From positions 2,294,001 to 2,358,000 of the forward strand of contig NZ_WYDQ01000001.1 in NCBI RefSeq assembly GCF_024105635.1: DNA of 64,000 nt, in the 5' to 3' direction. The first letter of the stretch is position 1, and each line of letters starts with the position of its first letter. Below the pieces are notes generated by a model. The model did not search any database, was not told the DNA's origin, and saw nothing but the letters and a program-made list of their open reading frames with translations. The DNA is from Oceanicola sp. 502str15. Lineage in GTDB: Bacteria; Pseudomonadota; Alphaproteobacteria; Rhodobacterales; Rhodobacteraceae. This document shows positions 27,371 through 46,563 of the stretch, piece by piece. The position numbers and the translations under genes were made by a program.

Positions 27371-27395
27371 CCAGACTTTTGGGAGGAGACACATC

Positions 27396-28376: not shown

Positions 28377-28388
28377 CCTGACCGGCCC

Positions 28389-30205: not shown

Positions 30206-30269
30206 CTGGCCGGCCCGAAAGGCCGCGCAGGAAATCCTGCACGCTCACAGCAGGCCCGAAAGCCAGTTA
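30203..30269. terminator. Nested inverted repeats between convergent operons
   Basis: TAACTGGC (30203-30210) and GCCAGTTA (30262-30269) are a perfect outer pair; each contains the TAA stop of one of the converging genes. Inside are GGCC-CGAAA-GGCC (30212-30224) and GCAGG-AAAT-CCTGC (30227-30240). No T-run is present, but the symmetry fits a bidirectional end-of-transcript structure. Confidence 0.5.
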
Positions 30270-32498
30270 CGGCCCAAGCGCCCGAAGGGCAACGCGGGTG
30301 CCGCCCGCGCTTGCGCCTTGCGACAGCTCCGAGGAGCCGAGGTCGCGGGTCAGGGCGTTCGGGTTGCCGCCAAGGTCCAGCAGGCTGCCGTCGGCCTGGG
30401 GCTCGGGACGATACCAGCCACCGGTCGGCAGAACGATGTGGCCGGGCGCAACGCGGGGATCGGCCTCGAGGGCAACCCTGACGGCGCCGCGGTCATTGTG
30501 GATCACGGCCAGCGCCCCGTCTTCCAGCCCGGCGGCGGCAATGTCGGCCGGGTGGGCGCGGGCGACCTCGCAGCCCTGCCTGCGGGCCTCGCTTGCAGCG
30601 GGCGCGCCATCGAGCTGGCTGTGCAGGCGGGCTTCGGGCTGGGGCGACAGGAGGCGCAGCGGGTAGGCTTCCGGCTCGCCCGCATCGCTTGGGGCGGGCG
30701 CGCTCAATGCGGCCTGCAAGCGGCTGTCGTGTCGCTGCAAAAGCGGCGGCAGAAGCTCAATCAGGCCGCTGGGCGTGGACAGCGGGGCTTCGGACGGGGC
30801 GGCAACAAACCGCGCCAGCGGCTGCACCACCTCGTCGGGCGGCGGGGCGGCGAGCCTGGCATATCCGGTCTCGGCGAGCCCCTGCCAATCTGGCAGCTCC
30901 GGATGCGCCGCACGGTAGCCGGCATAGAGCTTCTCCATCCACGCACGCTCCGAGAGCCCCCCGGTGAAAGCCGCGTCGAGGCCAAGGTGACCGGCGATGC
31001 GCGTCAGCACGGCGTGGTCGGTTTCGATCCCCTCCGGGGGCGGCATGACCTGCCGGGAGTAGACCAGCCAATCGTCACGGGAGGCCGCGGCAATGTCTTC
31101 GCGCTCGAACGGCAGGGCCGAGGGAAACACCAGATCGGCATGCTGGGCGGTGGCCGTCCAGACGCTCTCCTGCACGATGACGGTCTCGGGGCGCTGCCAT
31201 GCGCGGGCCAGCCGGTTGAGGTCCTGATGGTGATGAAAGGGATTGCCCCCGGCCCACCAGATGAGCCGGATATCGGGCAGCTCGAGCGGGCCACCGTTGT
31301 AGGTGATTGTATCACCGGGGCGTTCCAGCATCTCGGTGATCCGCGCAACCGGGATGAACTCGGCAACCGGGTTCTCGCCCTGCGAAAAGGCCGGCCCGCG
31401 CATCCGGCGGATCGGATTGCCGACCGAAGAAACCGCCGACAGCCCGCAGGCAAGGCCACAACCCGGGCGCCCGATCTGGCCGGACAGCGTGGCGAGAACG
31501 AGCGCGGCCCAATAGGGCTGCTCCCCTACAATTGCGCGCTGCAGCGACCAGGAGAGGTTGATCAGCGCCGGTCCGGCGGTGAGCTTGCGGGCAATCTCGA
31601 CGATGCGCCCGGCGGCGATGCCTGTCAGCGCGGCGGCCCAGTCCGGTGTCTTGGGGATGCCATCGGCGCTGCCGAGGATCAGGGCGCGGATCTCGTCATA
31701 GCCGCTCCCGATGCGGCGCACCGCGGCCTCGTCGACCCGGCCCTCCACCAGCAGAACATGGGCCATTGCCAGCATGGCGCAGGCGTCGGTTCCGGCGTTG
31801 ATGGGCTGGTGCTCTCCGATGGGAGCGTCGCGCCCATCGGGCGAGAGGGTCAGCATCTCGCCCCTCGCCTCTGCGAAACCTTCGATCCATCCGCGCGTGC
31901 GATGGGCGCCGGTGCCGCCGGCCTCGACCTGTGCGTTTGCAAGGCGCATCCCGCCGAAACTCAACAGGAAGGGCTTCACCTGCGCGATCCGGTCCCAACT
32001 CGGGTTGAAGCCGCCGGGGTCGGCATATTCCGCGCCAACGAGATGCGGGAGCAGAACCTTGGCGGTTCCGTAGCTGTAGGTGTTTCGTGCCGAAACGAAG
32101 CCGCCGGCAAGATTGAGGAAACGCTTCAGCTGGCTCTGCGGATGATGAAAGCGCCCGGCCGAGCCCCAGCCGTAGGACCCCCCGAAGATCGCCCGGTTGC
32201 CATGGGTCTTGCGCACCCGGTCCAGCTCCCTGGCCGCAAGCGCGCAAGCCTCCTCCATGTCGAGCGGAACGAAGGCGTCCCGGTCGCCCCGCGGGGCGCT
32301 GCCCGCAGCCCCGTGCCGGCCCTCGAGCCAGCTCCTGCGGGCCATCGGCTGCCGGATGCGGGTGGGATGGTCGGCGAGCGCCAGAAACCCCGCACCAAGC
32401 GGCGAGGGATCGGGGTCGTGGCGGAAGGGCAAGAGCCGGGGCCCCGCAGGCTCGCGGGCGATCTCGTAGGTTCCGAAATGGCTGGCGAACAGGTCCAA
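30267..32498 (-). CDS. Molybdopterin S/N-oxide reductase, biotin sulfoxide reductase (BisC)-like
   Basis: About 743 residues, cytoplasmic (no Tat leader), matching BisC/TorZ-type members of the DMSO reductase family. S113 in GSYGWGSAGRFHHPQSQ occupies the position of the molybdenum-ligating serine. Other family parts are GGNPFHHHQDLNRL, QESVWTATAQHADLVFPSALPFER, and a C-terminal MGD-binding domain (LHSQLDGAP, HPADIAAAGL, VLPTGGWYRP). The N-terminal FeS cluster motif is absent, as expected. TTG at 32498 is chosen because GGAGAG sits 5 nt upstream and the fold starts there; GTG at 32531 lies within the preceding hairpin. It would reduce a sulfoxide or N-oxide made or imported by the upstream operon genes. 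Confidence 0.85.
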   Translation of the reverse strand: MDLFASHFGTYEIAREPAGPRLLPFRHDPDPSPLGAGFLALADHPTRIRQPMARRSWLEGRHGAAGSAPRGDRDAFVPLDMEEACALAARELDRVRKTHGNRAIFGGSYGWGSAGRFHHPQSQLKRFLNLAGGFVSARNTYSYGTAKVLLPHLVGAEYADPGGFNPSWDRIAQVKPFLLSFGGMRLANAQVEAGGTGAHRTRGWIEGFAEARGEMLTLSPDGRDAPIGEHQPINAGTDACAMLAMAHVLLVEGRVDEAAVRRIGSGYDEIRALILGSADGIPKTPDWAAALTGIAAGRIVEIARKLTAGPALINLSWSLQRAIVGEQPYWAALVLATLSGQIGRPGCGLACGLSAVSSVGNPIRRMRGPAFSQGENPVAEFIPVARITEMLERPGDTITYNGGPLELPDIRLIWWAGGNPFHHHQDLNRLARAWQRPETVIVQESVWTATAQHADLVFPSALPFEREDIAAASRDDWLVYSRQVMPPPEGIETDHAVLTRIAGHLGLDAAFTGGLSERAWMEKLYAGYRAAHPELPDWQGLAETGYARLAAPPPDEVVQPLARFVAAPSEAPLSTPSGLIELLPPLLQRHDSRLQAALSAPAPSDAGEPEAYPLRLLSPQPEARLHSQLDGAPAASEARRQGCEVARAHPADIAAAGLEDGALAVIHNDRGAVRVALEADPRVAPGHIVLPTGGWYRPEPQADGSLLDLGGNPNALTRDLGSSELSQGASAGGTRVALRALGP

Positions 32499-32517
32499 GG
32501 GGTCTCTCCGAAAGGGG

Positions 32518-32546
32518 GAGGCAGGCGGCACCGGGCCGCCTGCCTC
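32518..32546 (-). terminator. Perfect 12-bp hairpin between binding protein and Mo-reductase genes
   Basis: GAGGCAGGCGGC (32518-32529) and GCCGCCTGCCTC (32535-32546) pair perfectly around a 5-nt loop, 25 nt after the binding-protein stop. No T-run follows on the minus strand, only CCCCCTTT. It probably reduces read-through into the reductase gene or protects the 3' end of the binding-protein mRNA. Confidence 0.55.
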
Positions 32547-32570
32547 TCGGGTGTGGTCAGGGACGCGCGG

Positions 32571-34064
32571 TCACTCTGCCGGGGACATGTCGAAGGCGCG
32601 CAGCCAGTCGTCGCCGCGCCCCTGGTAGGTCACCTTGGTCGAAACGCCGTAGGTCGCAGGCTGGGCGTAAAGGAAGACCACGGGGGCCTCTTCGCACATG
32701 ATCTCGGTGGCCTTCTTGTAGGCGGCCTCCCGCTCGGCCTCGTCGGTGGTGGCGATGCCGGCGACGAGTTGCGCGTCGAAGGCCTCGTCGTTCCAGTAGG
32801 AATACTGGTTGCCGGGCTTGAACAGGGTCAGCAGACCGTCGGCGTCAATCGTCGCCCAGGCCTGACCGAGCAGCGAGAAGCGGCCGAGGTCATGCGCCTT
32901 GCGGTACTTGTCGAGATAGGCGCCGAACTCCATCGCCTGGATCTCGGTCTGAACACCCACATCGCCAAACATCTGCGCCACCGCCTGGGTCACTTCCTCG
33001 CCCTGCAGGTAGGTGGCGGAGGGCAGTTCGAACTCGATCGGCTGGCTCAGGTCGACGCCGGATTCCGCCAGCAATTCCTTCGCCTTCTCCGGGTCGTAGG
33101 GGTAAGCCTCCAGCTCCGGGTTGTAGCCGAAGTAATCCGGCGTCATCACCTGACAGTTCGACACCGTGGCCCGCCCGTCGAACAGGGCATCCGCGATCAG
33201 CTCCTTGTCGACGGCGTAGTTCAGCGCCTGCCGGAAGAGCTTGTTGTCGAGCGGGGCCTTCTCGGTGTTGAACTTGATGAAGACCGAGCGGGTGCTGTCG
33301 ACGGCGCCGGCGGTGGCCACGGGGCTTTCGTCGATGCGCGACAGCTCGGAGGCGGGCACCTTGTTGATCAGGTCGACCTCACCGGCCATCAGCGCCGCGA
33401 TCCGGCTGGCGGTCTCGGGGATCACGCGAAAGGTCACGCTGTCGAACTGGGCCGGCGCGTCGCCCCAGTAATCGGCGTTGGGCACCATGGTGATGTGATC
33501 GCCAGGCACGTTCTCGGTGATGGTGTACCTGAAGCCCGACATGGTCTCGGTCACCGGGTCGTGCTCAGAGGCCCACTCTGGCGGCAGCAGCATGAACATC
33601 GAGAGCTGCGCCGGAAGGGCGGGATAGGGCGAGGAGGTCTTGATCTCGAACTCGGTGGGCGAGATCACGTTGACGCCTTCGATCTGGCTGAACCACGACG
33701 AAATCCGCATCGGGTTGTCGGCATCGGTCACGCGGGCGATGTTCCACGCCACGGTGTCCGAATCCAGCGGCTCGCCGTTGGCGAATTTCGCGCCTTCGGT
33801 GAGGGTGAACTTCCAGGTCAGATCATCGACCGCTTCCCAGGATGTGGCCAGCGAGGGGACCAGCTCATAGCTGGGCTCGCGCAGGATCAGCGTGGGGTAG
33901 ATGTGGCTCAGCACCGAGAGGTCGAGGCCCACGGAGGCAGATCCGTGCGGGTCCAGCGTGTTGACCGCGGAGGTCTGCGCGATGGTGATGTCAGCGGCGA
34001 GCGCCGGGCCGGCGAGAGCGGCGGCAAGGGCGGTCGAGGCGAGTAGGCGAGGCAAGTTGGTCAT
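32571..34064 (-). CDS. ABC transporter substrate-binding protein, peptide/opine/nickel family (SBP_bac_5)
   Basis: About 497 residues. ATG at 34064 has AGGGAACGCC upstream; another ATG 15 nt earlier is possible. Sec leader: MTNLPRLLASTALAAALAGPALA. The mature protein has family 5 hallmarks: NTLDPHGSASVGLDLSVLSHIY, LATSWEAVDDLTWKFTLTEGAKFANGEPL, and KLFRQALNYAVDKELIADAL. These proteins bind oligopeptides, opines, glutathione or other large polar ligands for DppBCDF-type importers. It lies after the two ATPases in the operon and before the Mo reductase, so it probably defines the substrate of the system. Confidence 0.92.
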   Translation of the reverse strand: MTNLPRLLASTALAAALAGPALAADITIAQTSAVNTLDPHGSASVGLDLSVLSHIYPTLILREPSYELVPSLATSWEAVDDLTWKFTLTEGAKFANGEPLDSDTVAWNIARVTDADNPMRISSWFSQIEGVNVISPTEFEIKTSSPYPALPAQLSMFMLLPPEWASEHDPVTETMSGFRYTITENVPGDHITMVPNADYWGDAPAQFDSVTFRVIPETASRIAALMAGEVDLINKVPASELSRIDESPVATAGAVDSTRSVFIKFNTEKAPLDNKLFRQALNYAVDKELIADALFDGRATVSNCQVMTPDYFGYNPELEAYPYDPEKAKELLAESGVDLSQPIEFELPSATYLQGEEVTQAVAQMFGDVGVQTEIQAMEFGAYLDKYRKAHDLGRFSLLGQAWATIDADGLLTLFKPGNQYSYWNDEAFDAQLVAGIATTDEAEREAAYKKATEIMCEEAPVVFLYAQPATYGVSTKVTYQGRGDDWLRAFDMSPAE

Positions 34065-34107
34065 GGCGTTCCCTGTCATTGAGTGAGTGATGTTGAGCGG
34101 ACCTGTC

Positions 34108-35019
34108 TCATTGGATCTGCTGATCGAGGACGAAGTGACCGGGCGAAATCTCGATCATTTCGGCTTCACGTGGCGGAATGTTGGCCGACACGTCGAAGGG
34201 CGGGCGCTCGGGCCGCCTGCGATCCGGGTCGGGCACCGGGATCGCGGCCAGAAGCGAGCGGGTATAGGGGTGGCGCGGATCGGAGAAGATCTGCTCTGTC
34301 GGGGCCAGCTCCACGATGCGCCCCCGCAGCATCACGGCGACTCGCTGGCAGAGGTAGCGCACCATGCTCAGGTCATGCGCGATGAACAGGTAGGCCAGGC
34401 CCATCTGGTCCTGCAAATCCTGAAACAGGTTCACGATCTGGGCCTGGATCGACACGTCCAGCGCCGTGATCGGCTCGTCGGCCACAATGAAGGCCGGGCG
34501 CAGGGCAATCGCCCGCGCGATGTTGATCCGCTGCCGCTGCCCGCCGGAAAACTCGTGCGGGTAGCGGGTCATGAAGGCCGGGTCGAGTCCGACGACCCTG
34601 AACAGCTCGGCAACGCGGTCGGTCAGGGCGGAGCCATGCTCCACCCCATGCACCACAAGCGGCTCGGCCACGAAGCGCCCCACCTTCATGCGCGGGTTCA
34701 GCGCCGAATAGGGGTCCTGAAAGATCATCTGCATCTCGCGGCGATAGGGTTTCAGCGCCGCCGCGTTGAGGCTGGTCAACTCGTTGCCCCGAAACCGGAC
34801 CGAGCCGGAATCCGCGGCCTCAAGGTGCAGAACCGCGCGGCCGATGGTCGACTTGCCCGAGCCGCTCTCGCCCACGAGGCCGAGGGTTTCGCCATTGGCG
34901 ATCTCGAAGCTGACGTCGTTGATCGCATGGATCACCGGCTTGGGCGCCCCCAGCAGGCGCTTGCCGCCGCCGAAGCTGCGGCGCAGGTTCTCGACTTCCA
35001 GAAGCGGGGTCTCGCTCAT
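34108..35019 (-). CDS. Oligopeptide-type ABC transporter ATP-binding protein (DppF/OppF-like)
   Basis: A 303-residue ATPase with Walker A GESGSGKST, Q-loop IFQDPYSALNPRM, signature FSGGQRQRI, Walker B AFIVADEPITALD and H-loop IAHDLSM. The C-terminal extension HPYTRSLLAAIPVPDPDRRR is typical of the Opp/Dpp group. ATG at 35019 overlaps the stop of the preceding ATPase gene by 4 nt. It pairs with that ATPase to energise import through the two permeases encoded upstream in the operon. Confidence 0.94.
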   Translation of the reverse strand: MSETPLLEVENLRRSFGGGKRLLGAPKPVIHAINDVSFEIANGETLGLVGESGSGKSTIGRAVLHLEAADSGSVRFRGNELTSLNAAALKPYRREMQMIFQDPYSALNPRMKVGRFVAEPLVVHGVEHGSALTDRVAELFRVVGLDPAFMTRYPHEFSGGQRQRINIARAIALRPAFIVADEPITALDVSIQAQIVNLFQDLQDQMGLAYLFIAHDLSMVRYLCQRVAVMLRGRIVELAPTEQIFSDPRHPYTRSLLAAIPVPDPDRRRPERPPFDVSANIPPREAEMIEISPGHFVLDQQIQ

Positions 35020-36026
35020 TGCGGTGCCTCCTCGGTGGTGGCGAGCAGCGCCGGCAGGTCATACCAGGCCGCAACCATGTGGCCGGGAACGTCCCCCACC
35101 TCCCGCAGCGGCGGCACCTCGCGCCGGCACCGGTCGGTGGCAAAGGGGTTGCGCGGCGCAAACGGGTCGCCAGCGGGCAGATTGGCCATGTTGGGCGGGC
35201 TGCCGGGAATCTGGTAGAGACGGCGCTGGGTGCGCGCGCCCTCGGTCGGCAGAGACTTGAGCAGGCCCCAGGTATAGGCCGAGCGCGGATCGTGAAACAC
35301 CGGGCGAACCGGGCCGCGCTCCATGATGCGCCCACCATACATCACCTGCACCGTATCGGCCAATTCGGCCACCACGCCCATGTCATGCGTCACCCAGACG
35401 ACGGTGGTGCCAAACTCTCCCTTGAGCTTGCGCACAAGGTCGAGGATCTGGGCCTGCACCGTCACATCGAGCGCGGTGGTGGCCTCGTCCGCGATCAGCA
35501 GGCGCGGATTGCAGGCCATGCCGATGGCGATCAGCACCCGCTGGCGCATCCCGCCCGAAAACTCATGCGGATATTGCGACAGCCGTGCCTCCGGATGGGG
35601 GATGCCGACGATGTCGAGCAGCTCGATCATCCGGGCCTTGAGCTTGCTGCCCGTCAGGTCGGTATGGCGCACCAGCACCTCGCGCAACTGGCGTCCCACG
35701 GTGAGCACGGGGTTGAGAGATGACATCGGGTCCTGAAAGACCATGCCGATCTGACCGCCGCGAATTTCCCGCAGCTCCCTGTCGGAAAGGGTCATCAGAT
35801 TGCGCCCGTCAAACCACGCCTCCCCCGAGACGATCCGCGCAGGCGGCGAAGGCAGCAGGCCGAGAAGCGCGAGGATGTGGACGGACTTGCCCGAGCCGGA
35901 CTCCCCGACGATGCCAAGGGTCTCGCCCGCCTCGACGCTGTAGCTCAGGCCGTTGACCGCCTGCACGACGCCGCCGGGGGTATCGAACTCGACCGTGAGA
36001 TTGCGGATGTCCAGAAGGGGTGCCAC
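35016..36026 (-). CDS. Oligopeptide-type ABC transporter ATP-binding protein (DppD/OppD-like)
   Basis: About 336 residues. GTG at 36026 is chosen, with TCGAGG 6-8 nt upstream and beginning 1 nt after the M24 stop; another GTG at 36050 would add eight residues and overlap that gene. Motifs: Walker A GESGSGKSV, Q-loop VFQDPMSSLNP, signature FSGGMRQRV, Walker B RLLIADEATTALD and H-loop WVTHDMG. The C-terminal Opp/Dpp domain contains a cysteine-poor NPFATDRCRREVPPL segment. It is partner of the OppF-like ATPase. Confidence 0.93.
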   Translation of the reverse strand: MAPLLDIRNLTVEFDTPGGVVQAVNGLSYSVEAGETLGIVGESGSGKSVHILALLGLLPSPPARIVSGEAWFDGRNLMTLSDRELREIRGGQIGMVFQDPMSSLNPVLTVGRQLREVLVRHTDLTGSKLKARMIELLDIVGIPHPEARLSQYPHEFSGGMRQRVLIAIGMACNPRLLIADEATTALDVTVQAQILDLVRKLKGEFGTTVVWVTHDMGVVAELADTVQVMYGGRIMERGPVRPVFHDPRSAYTWGLLKSLPTEGARTQRRLYQIPGSPPNMANLPAGDPFAPRNPFATDRCRREVPPLREVGDVPGHMVAAWYDLPALLATTEEAPQ

Positions 36027-36027
36027 G

Positions 36028-37221
36028 TCAGACCTCGATGTAGCCGCCACGCGACCTTGTCAGAAATTCATGGCCGGTTTCGGTGATGAGGATGGTGTCG
36101 GAAATCTGGGTCGAGACATCCTGATCAGGGATGCGCAGATTAGGCTCCAGCGTGAAGAGCATGCCGGGCTCGAGGATCACGTCGGTCTTGCCGTCGAGCG
36201 AGAAATGCTCGTGGGCGCCGATGCCGATGGTGTGGCCGATCCGGCCCGGGATGTTGGCGTCATACCCCGCCTCGATCAGCCCGCGTCTGGTGATGTTGTA
36301 GAGCTCTGCCAAGGGCGTGCCGGGGGTCATCACCGGGGTGATCTCTTCGCGGATCTTCAGGATCGTATCGAGCGCCCGGCGGCGTTTGTCCGGCGCGGGG
36401 CCGATGGCGACGGTGCGCTCGTTCTCGGCGTGGATGCCGTTGGCGATCGACCAGATGAAGATCGCGCAGAACTCGCCCTGTTGCGGCGTGCGGGTGATCG
36501 AGTTGTCGCAGTTGCGAAACATCCGCGGGCCGGAGAGCACCCAGGTCGACAACCCGTTGACCATGCCGCCCTCCAGCCCGCCGAAATCGGCCACCTCGAC
36601 CGTATCGGGCAGCTTGTGGGTCCAATGCGCGTTCATCGCGGCCTGCGAGGCGGTGTGGGCCTCGCGCTCGGTTCCGCCCGCAGCCAGCGCCGCAATGGCG
36701 GCTTCCATCCCGAGGTCGGCCATTTCGGCGGCGATGCGGGCGTTGGCAATCTCGTCGGGGTCCTTGATCAGGCGGCAGCGGTCAATCAGCGCCGAGCTGT
36801 CGACCAGCTCGGCCTCGGGCATCAGCCCCTCGACGGTCTTCCAGCGCGCGACGGGGGTGCTGTCGGCCTCAAGGCCGATGCGGGCACCTTCGAGTCCCTT
36901 CTCGGCAAGGATCGCGGACAGCGCATCCTGCCAGTTCGGCCCCATCGTCTTGGTCGTGGACCAGACGCCATAGGCGCGCAGGTCACTCACGAAGCCCTCG
37001 TCGCGCCCATGTGCATCGCGCAGCGCGTGGACAAGCAGCGTCGGCGCGCCCTCGGCGGGCAGGATGGCGATGACCGGGTGTGAGTAGAGGATCGGGTTGA
37101 ACCCCGACATGTAGAAAGTGTGCTCGGGCTTGAAGCTGACCAGCACGTCGATGCCCTGAGCCGCCATGGCGGCCTTCAGGCGGGCGATGCGGGGGCGGGG
37201 AGTGTCGGAAGAGAGGCTCAT
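36028..37221 (-). CDS. M24-family creatinase/aminopeptidase P-like protein lacking metal ligands
   Basis: A 397-residue protein with the two-domain layout of prolidase/creatinase: an N-terminal domain (1-155) and a pita-bread C-terminal domain. The five metal ligands of M24 peptidases are not all present. The two aspartates correspond to F255 and E266 (IFIWSIANGIHAENERT), and the last glutamate to S374 (TQISDTIL); H330 and E359 remain. Creatinase, a metal-free hydrolase, shows the same kind of loss, so a non-peptidase C-N hydrolase acting on an amidino, amide or related compound is plausible. It is encoded inside a peptide-type ABC importer operon; ATG overlaps the permease stop by 4 nt. Confidence 0.8.
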   Translation of the reverse strand: MSLSSDTPRPRIARLKAAMAAQGIDVLVSFKPEHTFYMSGFNPILYSHPVIAILPAEGAPTLLVHALRDAHGRDEGFVSDLRAYGVWSTTKTMGPNWQDALSAILAEKGLEGARIGLEADSTPVARWKTVEGLMPEAELVDSSALIDRCRLIKDPDEIANARIAAEMADLGMEAAIAALAAGGTEREAHTASQAAMNAHWTHKLPDTVEVADFGGLEGGMVNGLSTWVLSGPRMFRNCDNSITRTPQQGEFCAIFIWSIANGIHAENERTVAIGPAPDKRRRALDTILKIREEITPVMTPGTPLAELYNITRRGLIEAGYDANIPGRIGHTIGIGAHEHFSLDGKTDVILEPGMLFTLEPNLRIPDQDVSTQISDTILITETGHEFLTRSRGGYIEV

Positions 37222-38075
37222 TTGGCGCTCCGTGTCTTGGGATCAAAGTAGTCGCGCAGCCAGTCCCCGAAGAGGTTGACGGACAGCACGGTCAGAACGA
37301 TGGCGAGGCCGGGGAAGGTCACCGCCCACCAGGCCGAGGAGAGATAGACGCGGCCATCCGCCAGCATCCGCCCCCAGGAAGGGGTCGGGGGCTGCACGCC
37401 GAGGCCGAGGAAGGAGAGCGCCGAGTCCATGATGATGACCCGCGCCAGCTCGAGCGTGCCCACCACGAGGGCCGGCGTCAGCACGTTGGGCAGGATGTGC
37501 AGAAACATGATCCGCCGCGTCGAGGCGCCGATGGCACGGGCGGATTGCACGAACTCGCGTTCCCGCAGGCTCAGAACCTGCGCCCGGATGATCCGGGCGT
37601 AGCGGATCCACGAGGTCAGCGCGAGCACGAGAACCACGTTGCGCAGCGACGGCCCGAGCGCGGCCACGACCAGCAGGGCCAGCAGCATCAGCGGCACGGC
37701 AAGCTGGATGTCGACGAGGCGCATCAGCAGCCGGTCAACGATGCCGCCCTTGTAGCCCGCCACGATGCCCAGCACCGTGCCGACGATGCCGCCAAGGAGC
37801 ACGGCGGTGGAGGCCACCAGAAGGGTGATGCGCGAGCCGTGGATCAGGCGCGATAGAATATCGCGGCCAACCTCATCGGTGCCCAGCGGATGGGCCCCGG
37901 GCGAAAACAGCCCCTCCCAGGTCGGCCCCGCAAGGCGCGCCCTGAGGTCGCCGCGGGTCGGGTCGGGCAGGTCGAGAACCGGGGCCAGCAGCGCGACGAG
38001 AATGATGCCGACGATCAGCACCGCGCCGACAAGACCGGCCTTGGAGCGGGTGAGTTCCTTGAAGAAGTGTTTCAT
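37218..38075 (-). CDS. Oligopeptide-type ABC transporter permease (DppC/OppC-like)
   Basis: A 285-residue permease with an N-terminal OppC-type helix (SKAGLVGAVLIVGIILVALLAP) and five further segments. GAHPLGTDEVGRDILSRLIHGSRITL is the hallmark DppC stretch, and LREREFVQSARAIGASTRRIMFLHILPN is the EAA loop contacting the ATPase. It is encoded 11 nt after the DppB-like gene and overlaps the M24 start. It is one half of the channel. Confidence 0.95.
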   Translation of the reverse strand: MKHFFKELTRSKAGLVGAVLIVGIILVALLAPVLDLPDPTRGDLRARLAGPTWEGLFSPGAHPLGTDEVGRDILSRLIHGSRITLLVASTAVLLGGIVGTVLGIVAGYKGGIVDRLLMRLVDIQLAVPLMLLALLVVAALGPSLRNVVLVLALTSWIRYARIIRAQVLSLREREFVQSARAIGASTRRIMFLHILPNVLTPALVVGTLELARVIIMDSALSFLGLGVQPPTPSWGRMLADGRVYLSSAWWAVTFPGLAIVLTVLSVNLFGDWLRDYFDPKTRSAK

Positions 38076-38086
38076 ATCGCGGCTCT

Positions 38087-39007
38087 TCAGCGGGCCGTGC
38101 GGATACGGGGATCAAGCACCCCGTACAGCAGGTCGACGAGGAAATTGATCAGCACGAAGATCGCGGCAATCAGGGTGATGCCGGCCTGGATCACCGGAAA
38201 GTCCTTGGCCTGGATCGCCTGGATGATCAGGCGTCCGATGCCGGGCCAGGCAAAGACCGTCTCCGTCACCACCGAGCCGCCGAGCAGCTCGCCGGTGAGG
38301 ATCGCGGTCATGGTCACGACCGGGATCAGCGCGTTGCGGGCGACATGCCAGAAGAAGACGGTGGAGCGCAGCAGCCCCTTGGCCCTGGCGGTGCGAATGT
38401 AGTCTTCCTGAAGGATCTCCAGCATCGAGGAGCGCAACAGCCGCGCGATCGAGGCCGAGACGAAAACGGCAAGCGTGAAGGCGGGCAGGATCAGGTGCCA
38501 GATCGTGCCATAGCCGCCGGTGGGCAGCCACCCGAGGTTCACCGAGAAGAACAGGATCAGCATGATGCCGAGCCAGAACACCGGGGTGGCCTGCCCCAGC
38601 AGCGCCACCGCCATGACCAGAAGCTCCACCGCCCGCCCTCGCTTGAGAGCCGCGACCGAGCCCGCAACGGCGCCGATCAGCAGGCCGATCACCATGGCGG
38701 TCATCGCCAACAGCGCCGTGGCCGGCAGCCGCTCGAGCACCACCTGCATCGCCTCGCGGCCGTGCTGGAACGAAATCCCGAAATCGCCCTGAACCGCGTT
38801 GAACAGGAACTTTCCGTATTGCACGAGGATCGGCTGGTTGAGCCCGAGCTGGGTGCGCAGCGCCTCGATGTCCTCGGGGCTCGCCCCGATCGGAAGCAGC
38901 AGCGCCGCCGGATCGCCCAGCACCCGGGTGACGAAGAACACGATGGTCACAACGCCCCAGACCGCCAGAAGCGATTCACCGAGACGGCGGAGGATAAAGC
39001 CGATCAT
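38087..39007 (-). CDS. Oligopeptide-type ABC transporter permease (DppB/OppB-like)
   Basis: A 306-residue permease with an N-terminal signal-anchor helix (RRLGESLLAVWGVVTIVFFVTRVLGDPAALL), the following G-x-N-P-like region LGLNQPILVQYGKFL and the EAA loop EDYIRTARAKGLLRSTVFFWHVARNALIPV, all typical of DppB. ATG at 39007 overlaps the stop of the hydrolase gene (ATGA). It forms the import channel with the DppC-like subunit. Confidence 0.95.
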   Translation of the reverse strand: MIGFILRRLGESLLAVWGVVTIVFFVTRVLGDPAALLLPIGASPEDIEALRTQLGLNQPILVQYGKFLFNAVQGDFGISFQHGREAMQVVLERLPATALLAMTAMVIGLLIGAVAGSVAALKRGRAVELLVMAVALLGQATPVFWLGIMLILFFSVNLGWLPTGGYGTIWHLILPAFTLAVFVSASIARLLRSSMLEILQEDYIRTARAKGLLRSTVFFWHVARNALIPVVTMTAILTGELLGGSVVTETVFAWPGIGRLIIQAIQAKDFPVIQAGITLIAAIFVLINFLVDLLYGVLDPRIRTAR

Positions 39008-39867
39008 GCCGGAGATCCGTTCAGAAAGTCGCGGATCCGCGCGAGCACTTCGGGGTTCTTCTCATGGTGGCAGGAATGGTTCGCGCCCGGCACCAGCCAG
39101 CCCGTCGCGTTGGGGCACAGCTCGGCGATGAGCTTTGTCTGGCTCGGCGGGCAGATCCAGTCGTGCTCGCCGCAAAAGGCCAGCGTCGGCACCGTCATGC
39201 GCGTGAGCGCCTCGCGCAGGTCATGCTCCTTTTCGCGGAACATCTCGTTATGGGTCTCGGCATGGAGGTGCATGGTGCGGGTGCGCTCCAGTGCCGCGTT
39301 CGGGTCGAAGACCTCGAAATAGAGCGGTTGCAGGGCAAACCAGATCAGGCGGAACTCGGTGTCGTCGGTGATCGTCGTCGAGAACAGCTTGTCGATCATT
39401 TCCGGCGAGGCGGATGGCACCTTGTCGATGCGGGCCTTGAAGGTCTCGATCGCCTCGGCCTCGTGATGGTGGCTCGGCGCGGTGCCGCGCAGGATGAGGT
39501 GGCTTAGGTGCCGCTGGTAATGCACCGCATAGGTGAGCGCGATCATGCCGCCAAAGCTGCCGCCCTGCAGGATGATCCTGCCCTCCTCGCCGCAGAAGTG
39601 CCGGCGGAAGGCTTCCACGTCGTCAGCGTATTGGCGAAAGTTCATCGGATAGGCGATCTCGCTCAACCCGCAGCCGCGCTGGTCGAAGGCGATGACCCTG
39701 TAGCGGTCGGCCAGGGCGGCATAGGCCCCCCATTCACCGATGTGATCCCCGGCACCGCGCCCGCCATGCAGGAGGATGATGGTCTCGGGGTTCTGCTCGC
39801 CGTCGATCCGGTAGCGAAAGCGGCAGCCGTTGAGGGTGATGTAGTCTTCGCGTCCGGTCAGGCTCAT
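39004..39867 (-). CDS. Alpha/beta hydrolase, proline iminopeptidase-like
   Basis: A 287-residue serine hydrolase. The ATG at 39867 overlaps the monooxygenase stop by 4 nt. Catalytic triad candidates are S104 in QGGSFGGM, D236 in CGEHDWICP and H264 in PGANHSCHHE; the oxyanion loop is LLHGGRGAGDH and the strand after it AFDQRGCGLSE, as in proline iminopeptidases and related amidases. No leader is seen, so it acts in the cytoplasm on the imported compound, hydrolysing an amide or ester bond. Substrate unknown. Confidence 0.88.
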   Translation of the reverse strand: MSLTGREDYITLNGCRFRYRIDGEQNPETIILLHGGRGAGDHIGEWGAYAALADRYRVIAFDQRGCGLSEIAYPMNFRQYADDVEAFRRHFCGEEGRIILQGGSFGGMIALTYAVHYQRHLSHLILRGTAPSHHHEAEAIETFKARIDKVPSASPEMIDKLFSTTITDDTEFRLIWFALQPLYFEVFDPNAALERTRTMHLHAETHNEMFREKEHDLREALTRMTVPTLAFCGEHDWICPPSQTKLIAELCPNATGWLVPGANHSCHHEKNPEVLARIRDFLNGSPA

Positions 39868-41327
39868 TTGGCCACCTCCAGAAGGCTCGGGGTCGCGTCG
39901 ACCCATTCGTCGCCCTGCAATTCCGGGGTGTCGTAGGCCTGCAACCCGGCAAAATGCGTTTCGACATCGGCGGCAAACAGCTCGGCAACGATGCCGCGCA
40001 TCAGCCGGTCTGCACCGGCAGAGATGGCCGGGATATCGCCCGACAGCTTGCCGTGGCTCAGCATGGCGGCATCGTTGAAGCAGTGGATCCGGGCCAGCAT
40101 CGGGCAGGTGCCGGGCTGCTTTTCGAGGAACTCGTAGGCCTCCCCGAGGTAGGGTGCATCGGTCATGAAGGGCTTTGCCGACCCCATGGCGGGCTCGTAG
40201 ATGCCGTCCTTCCACGTACGGATATATCCCGAGAAACTGGCAAACTCGTCGCGCCCGGTGAAATCGTTGCGAAACCCGGTCGCCGCAATCACGTAGTCGG
40301 CTTCGAAGGTGGTGAACGGGGTCTTCACCAGCAACTGGCCTCCGGCCTCGATCACATCCTCTACCGGGCAGCCGAGGAAGATGCGCGCATTGTCGTGGCG
40401 GGTCACGCGGAGGGTCGAGGTGCGCGGCGGCGGCACCTGCTCGTCGTTGACGTAATCGTTGAAGCGGTATTTCCACGCGTCCGGCAGGTAGCGCATCCCG
40501 TGAACCACGCCCTGGCTGCCAATGCCGGTCATCTTGTTGATGCGCGGCATTTCCTTGCGGCGGATCAGCATGTCGACCTGCGCCGCCCCCGCCTCCAGCG
40601 CGGCGGCGGCATTGTCCATCGCCGAGGCGCCTGCTCCGATGACGATGACCCGCTTTGCCTCGAGGGCGTCGAAGTCGATGTCATCTGCGCTATGCGCCCA
40701 GAACCGGCCGTCGATCCCGGTCAGAAAATCCGGGGTCGCCCCACCGCCAAGGCCCGAGCGGCCCGTCGCCAGCACCAGATGGCGGCAGACCTCCACGCGC
40801 GTCCCGGTGCCGTCCTGCAAACGCACCGCAATCAGCCCCTCCCCCGCATCTTCCACCAGGGTGACGCGGGTTTCATTCACGACCGGCAGGGCAAGCACGG
40901 CGCGATACCAGCGCAGGTAGTCCATCCACATGCCCTTGGGGATCTTGTCCATCTCATCGAAGGCGGCCTCGCCCCATTGCGCCTCGAACCAGGCCCGAAA
41001 GGTCAGGGCCGGCAGCCCGAGGCAGGGGCCGGAGAGGGTCTTGGGCGAGCGCAGGGTCTTCATCTGGGCAAAGGTTTCCCATGGGCCCTCGAAACCCTCC
41101 GGCGCGGCGTCATAGAGCACGATGTTCTCGACGCCCGAGAGCTTCAGCCGCGCCGCGCCCGCCAGCCCGCACATGCCTGCGCCCACGAAGATCACGTCGC
41201 GCACCCGCTGGCCATCGTGACTGCGGGCAGGCACCCAGGGTTTCGACGGCAGTTCCAGCAGGCTCAGATCCTTGGCAAGGCGGCCTTCGAGGGCTTCGAG
41301 CCCGGCGGTGCGATCGGTCATGTTCAT
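39864..41327 (-). CDS. Flavin-containing monooxygenase-like NAD(P)H oxidoreductase
   Basis: A 487-residue two-dinucleotide-binding flavoprotein. The FAD motif GAGMCGLAGAARLKLSG starts at residue 49, the NAD(P)H motif VIVIGAGASAMDNAAAALEAGA lies near 220-240, and the ATG motif is IAATGFRNDF. This layout fits class B N/S-oxygenases and related FMO-like enzymes. It overlaps the hydrolase by 4 nt and begins 2 nt after the LysR stop. By family it would oxygenate a soft nucleophilic N or S atom, or a carbonyl (Baeyer-Villiger). Coexistence with a sulfoxide-type reductase in one operon is notable. Confidence 0.87.
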   Translation of the reverse strand: MNMTDRTAGLEALEGRLAKDLSLLELPSKPWVPARSHDGQRVRDVIFVGAGMCGLAGAARLKLSGVENIVLYDAAPEGFEGPWETFAQMKTLRSPKTLSGPCLGLPALTFRAWFEAQWGEAAFDEMDKIPKGMWMDYLRWYRAVLALPVVNETRVTLVEDAGEGLIAVRLQDGTGTRVEVCRHLVLATGRSGLGGGATPDFLTGIDGRFWAHSADDIDFDALEAKRVIVIGAGASAMDNAAAALEAGAAQVDMLIRRKEMPRINKMTGIGSQGVVHGMRYLPDAWKYRFNDYVNDEQVPPPRTSTLRVTRHDNARIFLGCPVEDVIEAGGQLLVKTPFTTFEADYVIAATGFRNDFTGRDEFASFSGYIRTWKDGIYEPAMGSAKPFMTDAPYLGEAYEFLEKQPGTCPMLARIHCFNDAAMLSHGKLSGDIPAISAGADRLMRGIVAELFAADVETHFAGLQAYDTPELQGDEWVDATPSLLEVAK

Positions 41328-41329
41328 TC

Positions 41330-42265
41330 TCAGGTCTCGGATAGGGAGGTGCCGTCGATGCGGCGGATGTGCGGGATGAGGGCCTCTAGGGTGTCTTCGC
41401 AGAGGTCGAAGAAGGTCTGCGTGCTGCGCGTCGCGTCCGCGCCCTCCGCCGCGAAGAAGCCGAAGGTAAAGTCGATGGGTTCGACCAGCGGGCGCAGAAC
41501 CACGCCCTCGGGCGTGGCGCCGTAGGCGGTGATCGGCTCGACGATGGCAATCGAGTCGGCCAGTCGCGCAAGCTGCAGGGCAGCGACGGAGGAGTTGGCC
41601 CTGATGGTCCGTTCCGGCGTCATCCCGGCGGTGTCCAATGCCTGCCGGATCCGCCCCTGAAGGCGGGTCTGGTCGAGCATGGTCACGACTGTCTGCTTCC
41701 CGAGATCGGCCAGTGACACGGCTTCGCCCTCCGGGAACTCCGCCGCCCGTGCCTCGGCCAAGGCCACGACAAGCGGCGCGGAATAGAGCCTCTCGGCCTT
41801 CACGCCGGGCACGTCCAGCGGCAGCGAGGCAAGACCGATCCGCGCATTCCCGCTGCGCAGGTCCTGACCCACAGCATTGGGCGCGGCCTGCATCAGGCGG
41901 ATCTCGCGGGGCCGGTCGGCGGCGGGCCAGCGTGCGATGGCCTGCGGCACCAGCCCAGTGCCCAGCGCGTAGGTCGCTGAGATGGTCAGCGGCTGCTCGG
42001 TCTGGCTGGCGCGGGCGCGCGTGCGGGCCGGGAGGTCATCGAGCATGGCCAGCATGCGCCGCGCCTCCTCCTCGAAGGCGACCCCCTCCGCGGTCAGCGA
42101 TATCCGGCGCCCGACCCGCTCGAAGAGGTCAAAGCCCAGCCGCGTATCGAGATCCTGCAAGCAGCGCGTCACCGAAGACTGGGAGCGCCCGAGCAGTTCC
42201 GCGGCCAATGTGACCGACCCGGTTTCTGCCACTTTGAGGAAGGTGATGAAGTCTTTCCTGTTCAT
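41330..42265 (-). CDS. LysR family regulator leading the ABC/monooxygenase operon
   Basis: A 311-residue LysR-type regulator: HTH FITFLKVAETGSVTLAAELLGRSQSSVTRCLQDLD, LFERVGRRISLTAEG linker, and a standard effector domain. Unlike the other LysR genes here it is not divergent from its targets; it is the first gene of the operon, 2 nt before the monooxygenase, so expression of regulator and pathway would be linked. A T-N11-A-type palindrome lies just upstream at 42271-42289. Confidence 0.9.
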   Translation of the reverse strand: MNRKDFITFLKVAETGSVTLAAELLGRSQSSVTRCLQDLDTRLGFDLFERVGRRISLTAEGVAFEEEARRMLAMLDDLPARTRARASQTEQPLTISATYALGTGLVPQAIARWPAADRPREIRLMQAAPNAVGQDLRSGNARIGLASLPLDVPGVKAERLYSAPLVVALAEARAAEFPEGEAVSLADLGKQTVVTMLDQTRLQGRIRQALDTAGMTPERTIRANSSVAALQLARLADSIAIVEPITAYGATPEGVVLRPLVEPIDFTFGFFAAEGADATRSTQTFFDLCEDTLEALIPHIRRIDGTSLSET

Positions 42266-42270
42266 GAGTC

Positions 42271-42289
42271 GATCAAAATTGAATTGATC
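42271..42289. promoter_or_regulatory. LysR-type box upstream of the operon-leading LysR
   Basis: GATCAA (42271-42276) and TTGATC (42284-42289) form a perfect inverted repeat with a 7-nt AT-rich spacer, 6 nt before the LysR start codon. It is the only symmetric element in an AT-rich leader and the natural autoregulatory site. Confidence 0.5.
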
Positions 42290-42403
42290 CGCCCAATCAA
42301 TGCAAATTTAGCATGAATAGCCCCTGAACGGCCCGATCCGCGACTTTGCGCCGCCGATGCCTGCTTTTTGTGCATCAATGGGAGCTCATCATGCCAAAAA
42401 TGC

Positions 42404-42427
42404 AAAAAAGGCCCGCCGAAGCGAGCC
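42404..42427 (-). terminator. Intrinsic terminator after the cysteine desulfhydrase operon
   Basis: On the minus strand GGCTCGC-TTCG-GCGGGCC is followed by TTTTTT (42409-42404): a 7-bp stem with one G-T pair, a stable UUCG tetraloop and a U-run. It lies 27 nt after the stop of the PLP enzyme gene and separates it from the LysR-led operon downstream. Confidence 0.88.
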
Positions 42428-42453
42428 TTGATGATTCGTAGGGTTGGGGCGCG

Positions 42454-43578
42454 TCAGCCCGTTGGCAGGCTCAGCTCTCCCCCGTCCAGAAAGCGCTCCA
42501 ACGCATCCTTCCAGGGGGTCAGCTCGAAGCCCTGCGCCTTCAGCCAGTCCGGGTTGTAGTAGGTCTCGGTATAGCGCGAGCCGCTGTCGCAAACGATCGA
42601 GACCAGCGAGCCCTTGCGCCCCTGCTTCAGCATTTCCGAGGCAATCCAGCACAGGCCAAAGAAGTTGGTGCCCGTCGAGCCGCCGACCCGGCGGAAGATC
42701 CGGTCGGAGAGAACCTGCATCGCCGCAATCGAGGCCACGTCGGGGATGCGGATCATGTGGTCGATCACTTCCGGCAAGAACGAGGGCTCCACCCGCGGCC
42801 GCCCGATACCCTCGATCCGCGAGCCGCGCGGACACGTGGTGGTGCGGTCGCCCGAGTTGTAGCAATCGTAGAAGGCCGAGTGCTCCACATCGACGACGCA
42901 AAGCCGCGTGGCGAGGTTGCGATACCGGATGTAGCGGCCGATCGTGGCCGAGGTGCCGCCGGTGCCCGCGCTCATGATGACCCATTCCGGCACCGGATGC
43001 GTCTCCTGCTCCATCTGGGCAAAGATGCTCTCGGCAATGTTGTTGTTGCCCCGCCAGTCCGTCGCCCGCTCGGCAAAGGTGAACTGGTCGAGATAGTGCC
43101 CGCCGCTCTGCTCCGCGACCGATTGCGCCTCGGCATAGACCGCCGCCGCGCTCTCGACAAAGTGGCACCTGCCGCCGAACCGCTCGATCTCAGAGATCTT
43201 CTGGGGCGAGGTGCTGCGCGGCATCACGGCAATGAAGGGCAGTCCGAGGAGCTTGGCAAAATAGGCTTCCGAAACGGCGGTCGACCCGGAGGAGGCCTCC
43301 ACCAGCGTCGTACCCTGGCGAATGTGCCCGTTGCAGATGCCATAGAGCACCAGCGAGCGGGCCAGACGGTGCTTCAGGCTGCCGGTCGGATGGGTGCTTT
43401 CGTCCTTCAGGTAGATCGAGATGCCATCCAGCCCCGAGAACACGGGCTTGATCAGGTGGGTGTCTGCCGAGCGGTGCGCATCGCCCTGCAACAGCGCGAG
43501 CGCACGGCGGGCCCAGTCCCGTTCGAGGCATTCGGGCAGCGGCAGCAGGGCGCGGCAATCGGCGGAGCGCACCTCCAT
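42454..43578 (-). CDS. PLP-dependent cysteine synthase-family enzyme, Cds1-like cysteine desulfhydrase
   Basis: A 374-residue fold type II PLP enzyme. K69 in [15 protein letters not shown] is the Schiff-base lysine; [16 protein letters not shown] is the substrate loop, and [19 protein letters not shown] the phosphate-binding loop. Length and the long middle segment match the Cds1/L-cysteine desulfhydrase group rather than CysK, so it probably degrades cysteine or a related thiol amino acid to sulfide, pyruvate and ammonia. RidA, which clears the reactive aminoacrylate released by such enzymes, is encoded 1 nt upstream, supporting this. It ends at a strong terminator. Confidence 0.85.
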
Positions 43579-43579: not shown

Positions 43580-43954
43580 TCAGCAGCCGATCACGGCTTC
43601 GACCTCGACCATCGCGCCCTTGGGCAGCGCCGAGACCTCGTAGCAGGCCCGCGCCGGGAAGGGTGCGGCAAAGGCCTCGGCATAAACCGCGTTCACGGCC
43701 TCGAAGCCCGACAGATCGGTGAGCAGGATGGTGGTCTTGACGGTGCGCGACATGTCGGTGCCCGCGGCCTGCGCGATGGCGGCGATATTGGAAAGGCACT
43801 GGCGCATCTGGCCGGCGGCATCCTCGGCGGCAAAGGCACCGGTCGCCGGGTCGATCGGCAGCTGGCCGGAGACGAAGAGCAGATCGCCGGTTTGCATGGC
43901 CTGGCTGTAGGGGCCGATGGCTCCGGGGGCGTTCGGGGTGTCGATGGGGGTCAT
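43580..43954 (-). CDS. ridA: RidA family reactive-intermediate deaminase
   Basis: A 124-residue protein with the YjgF/YER057c/UK114 fold. It contains [28 protein letters not shown] and the catalytic Arg in [26 protein letters not shown] at 43954 starts the conserved domain; the upstream frame overlaps the AhpD-like gene. It hydrolyses 2-aminoacrylate and other enamines/imines to keto acids. Its position 1 nt before the desulfhydrase-like gene fits that role directly. Confidence 0.93.
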
Positions 43955-43965: not shown

Positions 43966-44529
43966 TCAGCTGGAGTGACCGAGCGGATGCATGAGCCGAT
44001 TGGCCCATCCGAAGATTGCGATGGAGTGTATCAGATCCTGGATCTCCGCATCATCCATCCCGGCTTCGCGCAGAGCGGCAATGTGGCCCCGGTCCGCTAC
44101 GGGCGGGGTCGCCGTAAGCGCCTCGGCGAAGTCGAAGATCGCGGCCTCCCTCGGGCCAAGGGCATCGCGCCGCCCGGCGTAGAGCGCAGAGGTCACGCCG
44201 GGGTCGGTCAGCTTGGCATGCTGGCGGGCGTGGACATTGGCGCAGTATTGGCAGCCGTTGATCAGCGACGCCGCAAGGGCGCCCAGCTCGCGGTCCGCCC
44301 GGGGCAGCCCGCCCTCGGCATACATGATCGCATTGAACAGCTCGGTGCGGGCAACGTAGCTGTCGGGGTCATGCACGAGGGTGCGGACATAGGCCGAAAC
44401 CTTCTTGGCCGAGGGCGTCACCTTCATGGCCTCAAGTTGCCTCGGCGTGGCATCGGCCATCTCGACCGGCGGCAGATGCGGCGTCCAGGTGAGTGGCTTC
44501 AGGGTGATCTGCGGGATGGAAGTGCTCAT
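43966..44529 (-). CDS. AhpD-fold peroxidase-related protein (carboxymuconolactone decarboxylase family)
   Basis: A 187-residue helical protein with the AhpD redox site C93-x-x-C96 and H100 in NGCQYCANVHARQH, preceded by the acid-base region ELGALAASLI. AhpD-like proteins use the CxxC pair for peroxide or disulfide reduction. ATG overlaps the stop of the next upstream AhpD-fold gene by 4 nt. Clustering with a second CMD-fold gene, RidA and a sulfide-releasing enzyme suggests a role in thiol/peroxide protection; that part is inference. Confidence 0.88.
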   Translation of the reverse strand: MSTSIPQITLKPLTWTPHLPPVEMADATPRQLEAMKVTPSAKKVSAYVRTLVHDPDSYVARTELFNAIMYAEGGLPRADRELGALAASLINGCQYCANVHARQHAKLTDPGVTSALYAGRRDALGPREAAIFDFAEALTATPPVADRGHIAALREAGMDDAEIQDLIHSIAIFGWANRLMHPLGHSS

Positions 44530-45005
44530 GCGTCCGGCTCCGCCAGCAGCGAGAGCCCGTGGACAACGCGGATCTGATAGCAGACCTGCGCCAGCAGTTC
44601 CGAAAGGGCGATGATCTGCGGCACCGAGAAGCCCGCATCCTGCAACTTCTGCAACTCTTCCCGCGAGGCCTTCGCCGGGATCGTGGCAATCATGTCGGCA
44701 TATTGCGCGAGGGTCGCCATGGCCGGATCGTCCGGCTCCCGGCCTTCCGCGAGGGCGGCGAGCGCCGGGTCTTGCGGGCGCGGGTAGCTCTCCACCATCC
44801 GCGCGTTACCGCTGCTGGCCGCGACCCGCCGGGCAACCGCCCCCCGCAGCTCGGGGGAAAGTCCGAGATCTTCCGCAGGCTCCAGGACCGCAGCACGGCT
44901 CGCCTCGCTGCCGGTCACAAACTCCGGGCGGCGCGCCCGAAGCTCCTTGAGGGCCCGGCTGCGAGAGCCGCCCAGGGCCATGTCGATGGCGTCCGATGTG
45001 GTCAT
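44526..45005 (-). CDS. CMD-domain protein paired with the AhpD-like protein
   Basis: A 159-residue protein of the carboxymuconolactone decarboxylase/AhpD superfamily. ATG at 45005 follows GGAAAGATCAAGA. It has the segment ELQKLQDAGFSVPQIIALSELLAQVCYQIRVVHGLSLL, where the CxxC of its partner is reduced to a single Cys. Such degenerate CMD proteins are often encoded directly before a CxxC-containing one, as here, and may form hetero-oligomers. It is the first gene of the four-gene operon and divergent from LysR at 45110. Confidence 0.8.
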   Translation of the reverse strand: MTTSDAIDMALGGSRSRALKELRARRPEFVTGSEASRAAVLEPAEDLGLSPELRGAVARRVAASSGNARMVESYPRPQDPALAALAEGREPDDPAMATLAQYADMIATIPAKASREELQKLQDAGFSVPQIIALSELLAQVCYQIRVVHGLSLLAEPDA

Positions 45006-45055
45006 TCTTGATCTTTCCGCATGGCCCGCGATGGGTGGGGGTGCTAACAATCCTC

Positions 45056-45090
45056 AAAATGCATAGTAGCGCATTTAGTATGCGCATTTT
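45056..45090. promoter_or_regulatory. Repeat-rich divergent control region (AAATGCGC motifs)
   Basis: AAAATGCATA (45056-45065) faces TATGCGCATTTT (45079-45090), and GCGCATTTA (45069-45077) repeats the same core between them, giving three copies of an AAATGCGC-like word in alternating orientation. It lies between the divergent CMD and LysR genes and is the likely LysR operator. Confidence 0.45.
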
Positions 45091-45109
45091 AGATCACTCG
45101 AGGCAAAGC

Positions 45110-46536: not shown

Positions 46537-46563
46537 GCGTTTTGTCCGGGGCGGGGGTTGGAG

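Follow-up and report, generated by a model that had tools for sequence, protein, structure and literature searches.

Organization of the gene cluster

A 64,000-nucleotide stretch of the Oceanicola sp. 502str15 genome (contig NZ_WYDQ01000001.1, positions 2,294,001 to 2,358,000; referred to here as the window) was analyzed with emphasis on an operon at 30267..42265, which comprises ten open reading frames (ORFs), all on the minus strand, namely, a leading LysR-type regulator gene (LysR1) and nine co-oriented genes. An initial annotation, made from the DNA letters alone, had described these ORFs as an uptake and catabolic system; their positions and strand were reproduced, and the protein families named there were borne out by matches to NCBIfam and Pfam profiles, by which all operon proteins were assigned. 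The genes had also been called mostly overlapping, which applies to five of the nine junctions (overlaps of 4, 4, 4, 23, and 4 bases), while the remaining four are short gaps (2, 11, 28, and 39 bases). From LysR1 onward, the features are as follows:

41330..42265, minus strand: LysR1 regulator (PF00126, PF03466)
39864..41327, minus strand: FMO, class B flavoprotein monooxygenase (FAD and NAD(P) motifs; PF13434 match)
39004..39867, minus strand: ABH, alpha/beta hydrolase, proline-iminopeptidase-like (PF00561, 102.4 bits; TIGR01250, 93.1 bits, under cut-off; GGSFGG nucleophile motif)
38087..39007, minus strand: DppB-type permease (PF00528, PF19300)
37218..38075, minus strand: DppC-type permease (PF00528, PF12911)
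36028..37221, minus strand: M24, metal-less creatinase/ectoine-hydrolase-like protein (ligand alignment and model fold)
35016..36050, minus strand: DppD-type ATPase (PF00005, PF08352; Walker A and signature motifs)
34108..35019, minus strand: DppF-type ATPase (PF00005, PF08352; Walker A and signature motifs)
32571..34079, minus strand: SBP, family 5 periplasmic binding protein (PF00496, 253.7 bits; signal-like N-terminal stretch by eye)
30267..32531, minus strand: MoRed, BisC-type molybdenum-bis(molybdopterin guanine dinucleotide) S/N-oxide reductase (TIGR00509, 586.8 bits)

Residues 16 to 743 of MoRed align with dimethyl sulfoxide (DMSO) reductase, giving a full-length alignment to the DMSO/trimethylamine N-oxide (TMAO) reductases, and the GGSYGW motif is retained; the serine of such motifs is a molybdenum ligand. 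By alignment and motif, MoRed is of the DMSO/TMAO/BisC reductase type, while its score stays below the curated cut-off of 1017.55 bits for TIGR00509, so that it was not placed in the BisC subfamily. The protein is probably cytosolic, as inspection by eye gave no signal peptide.

Distribution and conservation of the gene set

Conservation was assessed over 91 FMO loci, consisting of 11 chosen plasmid regions and the best 80 of 195 stretches obtained when genome contigs were scanned with an alignment of FMO proteins. These loci are close relatives in which genera such as Mesorhizobium and Pantoea recur; plasmid regions without FMO (L123 and L132) and all loci below 5,000 bases were left out, and six of eight further genome stretches were examined, none of which was added. 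Many stretches end about 10 kb from FMO or at a contig end, and absences refer to the stretch.

Results revealed that M24 was present in 15 of the 91 loci and that MoRed, SBP, and DppBCDF accompanied it in all 15, with ABH within the stretch in 10, while MoRed (at least 45% identity) without M24 occurred in none of the 91. The loci with both FMO and M24 come from ten genera (Pseudooceanicola, Stappia, Labrenzia, Pacificibacter, Frigidibacter, Falsirhodobacter, Neorhizobium, Rhizobium, Bosea, and Microvirga), with M24 being 54 to 83% identical (best piece) to the window protein and the gene order varying. Considering that proteins of the set recur across ten genera at identities down to ∼50% and in altered order, the set is more than chance, and the LysR-plus-nine genes are a real conserved unit. 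The initial proposal, in which a unit with two hydrolases is devoted to import and catabolism, is supported by this conservation in other genomes; a set not kept together elsewhere would have refuted it, and this was not the case. Nine plasmid records carried M24 at an E value of 1e-60, six of them at 60% identity or more, and the records with MoRed of at least 50% identity, as judged from the best 30 of 211, were the same six; the other three were one Neorhizobium record with broken set genes and two from Sinorhizobium medicae, one of them L123.

The constant partner of MoRed is thus M24, as seen in gene content. The reductase had initially been coupled with FMO as a redox pair, which was ruled out as a general rule by the 76 of 91 FMO loci that lack such a reductase in the stretch and by a locus from the same class, L136, which has the reductase and no FMO. 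L136 carries M24 (51%), DppBCDF, ABH, SBP, MoRed (43%), and an opine-dehydrogenase-like gene (57%), and its whole genome yielded no FMO at an E value of 1e-40. An opine-dehydrogenase-like protein in place of MoRed was also considered and dropped because L136 has both.

The gene system is rare but evolutionarily conserved. FMO at 65% identity or more was found in one of seven genomes of the genus, with a 50% relative in one other, and, at family level, in 3 of 295 sampled genomes, while M24 was found in 2 of 385 genomes of a class sample (E value of 1e-90) and 2 of 398 of a phylum sample (E value of 1e-85), the source genome being counted in each case. A literature search, with subscription journals mostly outside its scope, gave no account of this gene set, in line with the initial statement that no named pathway contains it; the operon is real, conserved, and, as far as searched, undescribed.

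Structural features of M24

The metal ligands of prolidase are D, D, H, E, and E. In alignments, three of these five are replaced in M24 (F255, E266, and S374 for D, D, and E) and H330 and E359 are kept, which upholds the description of the protein as metal-less and sets it apart from the M24 metallopeptidases (prolidases) by the five-ligand signature. The M24 model (predicted local distance difference test [pLDDT], 89) had its nearest folds in creatinase and the ectoine hydrolase DoeA, with a small lead over prolidases and 21 to 24% identity over the structural alignment. Judged by this modeled fold, M24 appears to be of the creatinase/DoeA type, i.e., of enzymes that perform C-N hydrolysis and cut amidine-type C-N bonds. 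Like them, it has an M24 fold lacking the prolidase set of metal ligands; it differs in its operon partners and in scoring under the DoeA cut-offs (96.5 versus 575 for NF038259, and 55 versus 613). As for FMO, no solved relative was found at 1e-5 with the single sequence, and a profile gave weak partial matches.

These features bear on the idea that the operon scavenges oxidized peptides or methionine sulfoxide, with Dpp importing peptides, M24 and ABH acting as peptidases, and the BisC-type enzyme repairing methionine sulfoxide. Such a role would agree with DppBCDF, the prolidase-like fold, the proline-iminopeptidase-like ABH, and the known reduction of methionine sulfoxide by BisC enzymes; however, prolidase metal ligands are missing from M24, neither a monooxygenase nor a cysteine lyase would be needed, and the presence of FMO (at least 65%) in a single one of the seven genus genomes is unlike general peptide use. 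We regard peptide scavenging as improbable.

Partners of FMO and exchangeable modules

Beyond LysR1, a second cluster on the same strand (CMD-AhpD1-RidA-Cds1, referred to as the trunk) is followed by a divergent regulator gene:

42454..43578, minus strand: Cds1-like L-cysteine desulfhydrase (NF052478, 569.6 bits over positions 1 to 352 of 354)
43580..43954, minus strand: RidA imine deaminase (TIGR00004, 155.1 bits, over cut-off)
43966..44529, minus strand: AhpD1, peroxidase-related, CxxCxxxH kept (TIGR01926, 167.8 bits, over cut-off; TIGR04030, 144.4 bits, under cut-off)
44526..45005, minus strand: CMD, degenerate CMD/AhpD-like protein, second Cys lost (CYQIRVVH; TIGR04029, 66.5 bits, partial, under cut-off)
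44996..46024, plus strand: LysR2, divergent from the trunk genes (PF00126, PF03466)

The cysteine desulfhydrase-like enzyme and RidA of this cluster had been recognized in the initial annotation, and two AhpD/CMD-type proteins can now be added. The Cds1-like protein falls narrowly under the curated NF052478 cut-off (569.6 versus 600).

AhpD1 and/or CMD occurred in 86 of the 91 FMO loci. Two predicted fusions from metagenome sources join AhpD1 to FMO (P0026) and RidA to M24 (P0227), for which assembly or prediction error is not excluded. Taken together, the locus linkages and these fusions suggest that FMO and AhpD1 probably act together, that M24 and MoRed probably do so as well, and that RidA probably belongs to the same chemistry. 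A neighborhood brought about by chance or hitchhiking, with no single pathway, would fit the finding that FMO, the trunk, and the Dpp/M24/MoRed block are each found apart from the others; against this, the blocks recur together in ten genera with order changes, genes overlap, and two fusions are predicted, and we consider a chance assembly very improbable.

The importers in the 91 loci were of the Dpp type in 19, the polar amino acid ATP-binding cassette (ABC) type in 50, the tripartite tricarboxylate transporter type in 10, the tripartite ATP-independent periplasmic (TRAP) type in 3, and the polyamine-type ABC type in 2, with none in the stretch in 8. The hydrolase likewise varies between relatives, being M24, HyuAB, or M19/M81. 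In L065, L077, L096, and L117, the Dpp genes and ABH are retained together with HyuA/HyuB-like and opine-dehydrogenase-family genes, and SBP is in view in three of them; caprolactamase-like HyuAB takes the place of M24 in L077 and L117 and probably also in L065 and L096, whose stretches end inside the Dpp genes. None of these four genomes contained this M24 type at an E value of 1e-60, a genome-wide search on which the absence in L065 and L096 rests; two had reductase copies of at most 43% identity off-locus, and two had none at an E value of 1e-100. M24 and HyuAB occurred together in none of the 91 FMO loci, but their strict exclusion is broken by S. medicae L123, where M24 lies beside HyuAB-like genes. 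In Palleronia and Salipiger, an M19 dipeptidase gene stands beside an FMO of 47 to 48% identity, Palleronia having an M81 gene as well, and in Labrenzia (L043) two FMO branches, one with TRAP and M19 dipeptidase genes and the other with Dpp, M24, and MoRed, surround a single CMD-AhpD1-RidA-Cds1 set.

An opine-dehydrogenase-family gene was present in 26 of the 91 FMO loci. Opine/nopaline-dehydrogenase-family genes near FMO loci lie, for example, at 15881-16957 of L121 and 1-614 of L128. FMO relatives of 58% and 56% identity lie in two stretches with HyuA/HyuB-like genes (L139 and L140, respectively); L139 has, by eye, ABC importer genes of a taurine-like kind, and in L140 the FMO gene and a cysteine-desulfurase-like gene share 4 bases.

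Evidence for cysteine as a possible product

Two sets of 12 genomes, one for the M24 and reductase checks and one for Cds1, were chosen by hand. A Cds1 relative (E value of 1e-70) was found in 7 of the 12, with the best copy, judged by coordinates, within ∼12 kb of FMO in all seven; in the source genome, the sole other NF052478 match at an E value of 1e-10 scores 74 bits. A cysteine-desulfurase-like gene lies nearby in 6 of the 91 FMO loci, accompanied by the Blh sulfur dioxygenase in 5, and cysteine desulfurases were the nearest solved relatives of one of these proteins. FMO likewise occurs with such a gene in L140 and L143, and TauE-type genes recur, together with Cds1, desulfurase-like, and Blh genes, beside FMO in several genera. 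As described in a study of Rv3684 (Cds1), that enzyme converts cysteine to H2S and pyruvate (PMC8389258). Together, these findings suggest that cysteine is a product in the window and in some of the relatives, though not in every one. Of the initial suggestion of a sulfur amino acid end product, the local part is plausible, with Cds1 and RidA next door, but its general occurrence does not follow from Cds1 in 7 of 12 chosen genomes.

Proposed pathway and competing explanation

We tentatively favor, with somewhat less than even confidence, a modular system in which an N- and S-containing conjugate is broken down to release cysteine. Its observed basis is the gene content and its conservation, the M24-MoRed and FMO-AhpD/CMD linkages, the loss of M24 ligands, and the partial linkage to cysteine enzymes; the reactions, their order, and the substrate are what we infer. 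In this scheme, LysR1 would turn on the operon from an upstream palindrome, and SBP with DppBCDF would bring in the conjugate. The metal-less M24 would cleave an amidine- or amide-type C-N bond and ABH an ester, acyl, or peptide bond, while the BisC-type enzyme would reduce the substrate or product of M24 in its S-oxide (or N-oxide) form. FMO would use NADPH and O2 to oxidize an S- or N-substituent, which then leaves, and AhpD1/CMD would reduce the remaining sulfenate or peroxide. Finally, Cds1 would convert cysteine to H2S and 2-aminoacrylate, which RidA would deaminate. It is established that S-alkylcysteines can be salvaged via a sulfoxide and a sulfenic acid (PMC10863075).

Several observations weigh against this proposal. 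The Cds1 relative is absent (E value of 1e-70) from 5 of the 12 chosen genomes (two Pseudooceanicola, Stappia, Falsirhodobacter, and Neorhizobium), and in Pseudooceanicola the exit or the product may be a different one. A Cds1 or desulfurase-like gene is in the stretch in just 13 of the 91 FMO loci and in 3 of the 15 M24 loci (L043, L044, and L118), Cds1 of Frigidibacter lying just outside its stretch. In L136, the opine-dehydrogenase-like gene (10764-11831) sits between M24 and DppB, the place of FMO in other loci. In S. medicae L123, M24 (10789-13179) is near a DUF3830 gene, with the HyuAB-like genes ∼9 kb away (1-3297); neither Dpp genes nor the set reductase is in view there, and the reductase is absent from the plasmid. 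The FMO model (pLDDT, 77) is nearest to putrescine/ornithine (amine) N-hydroxylases. Moreover, a terminator-like hairpin at 42408..42429 (minus strand) lies 3′ of the Cds1 gene, between the trunk and the operon, which may be two transcripts; terminator-like sites in the region are not above those in shuffled sequences (7 versus 7.8; standard deviation, 2.8).

A sulfur-free alternative is the catabolism of an N-substituted amine such as a guanidino compound, an opine, or a cyclic amidine/lactam. Here M24 would act like creatinase or ectoine hydrolase, N-hydroxylation by FMO would lead to C-N breakage, the Mo enzyme would reduce an N-oxide or N-hydroxyl group, and the pyridoxal phosphate-dependent enzyme would take another beta-substituted alanine. 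The creatinase- and DoeA-like M24 fold, the N-hydroxylases as nearest folds of the FMO model and the PF13434 match of FMO, the opine-dehydrogenase-family genes (in 26 FMO loci and beside M24 in the FMO-less L136), the caprolactamase-like HyuAB in place of M24, and the genomes without Cds1 all argue for it. Conversely, FMO has Cds1, desulfurase-like, Blh, and TauE-type genes as recurrent neighbors in several genera, and Cds1 is local in every one of the seven genomes that have it. Because of the FMO model and the opine-dehydrogenase-like genes, we keep this nitrogen-based explanation at about one in three, and the opine-dehydrogenase-like gene of L136 moved our judgment slightly from the cysteine conjugate toward it. 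At a guess, an N-carboxyalkyl cysteine-like compound would suit both the sulfur and the nitrogen explanations. A 2-aminothiazoline-4-carboxylate or thiazolidine-type substrate was also considered, since M24 enzymes open cyclic amidine, and no evidence for it was found.

Extending the cysteine conjugate proposal beyond the window, we suggest, more guardedly still and as one possibility among others, a widely spread modular breakdown of cysteine conjugates. Its core would be FMO, AhpD1, and CMD, feeding a cysteine-degrading enzyme in some loci, with exchangeable importers and C-N hydrolases and an opine-dehydrogenase-like helper or FMO stand-in, each set defining the conjugate; M24 and MoRed would then be a new two-enzyme route opening an oxidized cyclic or N-acylated cysteine derivative. 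If true, this would give a function to families annotated "NAD(P)/FAD-dependent oxidoreductase," "CMD domain protein," and "peroxidase-related enzyme," account for their joint occurrence in marine and plant-associated bacteria, and assign a metal-less M24 protein and a BisC-type reductase a joint role in organosulfur or amine turnover.

Comparison with known systems

CmoO and CmoJ are luciferase-like flavin monooxygenases. Their S-alkylcysteine salvage is the nearest described pathway, of which the present system is not a member: no luciferase-like flavin monooxygenase match was found among the operon and trunk proteins with NCBIfam and Pfam. If the cysteine conjugate proposal is right, the likeness to the Bacillus subtilis pathway would lie in the handling of N-acyl groups, the oxidation of a substituted cysteine by a flavin-dependent enzyme, sulfenic acid reduction, and cysteine release; in contrast, CmoJ is a YxeK/DszA homologue (PMC10863075), while the set described here combines a class B FMO with AhpD/CMD proteins, the Dpp importer, the metal-less M24, and MoRed. 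A similar conversion could be carried out here by different enzymes.

Among systems lacking an assigned function, the TIGR04028-30 locus type is the nearest, and we know of no function assigned to TIGR04027-TIGR04030 loci. Such a locus in Allorhizobium S4 (L132) shares a monooxygenase, a CMD protein, an AhpD protein, and a Dpp-type importer with the window, but its monooxygenase is luciferase-like, and no FMO and, in the stretch seen, no M24 or Mo reductase is present. The window proteins do not reach the cut-offs of TIGR04028 (97.5 of 468.5), TIGR04029 (66.5 of 100.75), or TIGR04030 (144.4 of 233.15). MoRed shares the single-subunit molybdopterin guanine dinucleotide type and the Ser motif with the BisC biotin sulfoxide/methionine sulfoxide reductases, but differs in its score under the TIGR00509 cut-off and in that its observed relatives of at least 50% identity are tied to M24. 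The importer is of the same type as the glutathione importer GsiABCD, and GsiA and GsiB were among the better profile matches, with scores below the cut-offs (335.1 of 1077 and 139.9 of 594, respectively).

A candidate LysR1 operator

A candidate operator is the palindrome GAATTGAT-N7-ATCAATGC, found 15 bases upstream of where LysR1 starts and also kept in the alignment of relatives:

42281..42303, no strand: candidate LysR1 operator

Its core, ATTGAT-N7-ATYAAT, occurs at a single place in the whole 4.44-Mb genome, where a reversed control pattern gave no match, which fits a LysR1 regulator serving only this operon. The exact core was found in 9 of 152 loci, partly copies of one place, namely, in the own (L009 and L144), Pacificibacter (L010, L044, and L138), Pseudooceanicola (L039 to L041), and Stappia (L042) loci, and was missing from the Labrenzia and Thioclava loci. 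A looser pattern with up to three mismatches was unremarkable: its two matches in the window fall on the two strands of a single place, and 14 of 100 shuffles reach this number.

Neighboring genes

The true start of LysR2 is likely near 45110 (by eye), and the gene keeps its position in near relatives, for example, L039 to L047. The TRAP genes beside it (46042-48974, minus strand) were considered as part of the system and rejected, the large permease being just 39% identical to that of the system-linked TRAP of Palleronia. On the other side, a CoA-transferase III gene, an HMGL-like lyase gene, and TRAP-type transporter genes (the last on the plus strand, partly by eye), at window positions 25203-30205, run toward the end of the operon and likely constitute a separate carboxylate pathway. 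In addition, a FAD-dependent oxidoreductase gene (48856-50163; PF12831, 357.4 bits) stands beside a LysR gene (50205-51155), and genes for the small and large subunits of ribonucleotide reductase (51252-54556) follow within a few kilobases of the accessory region.

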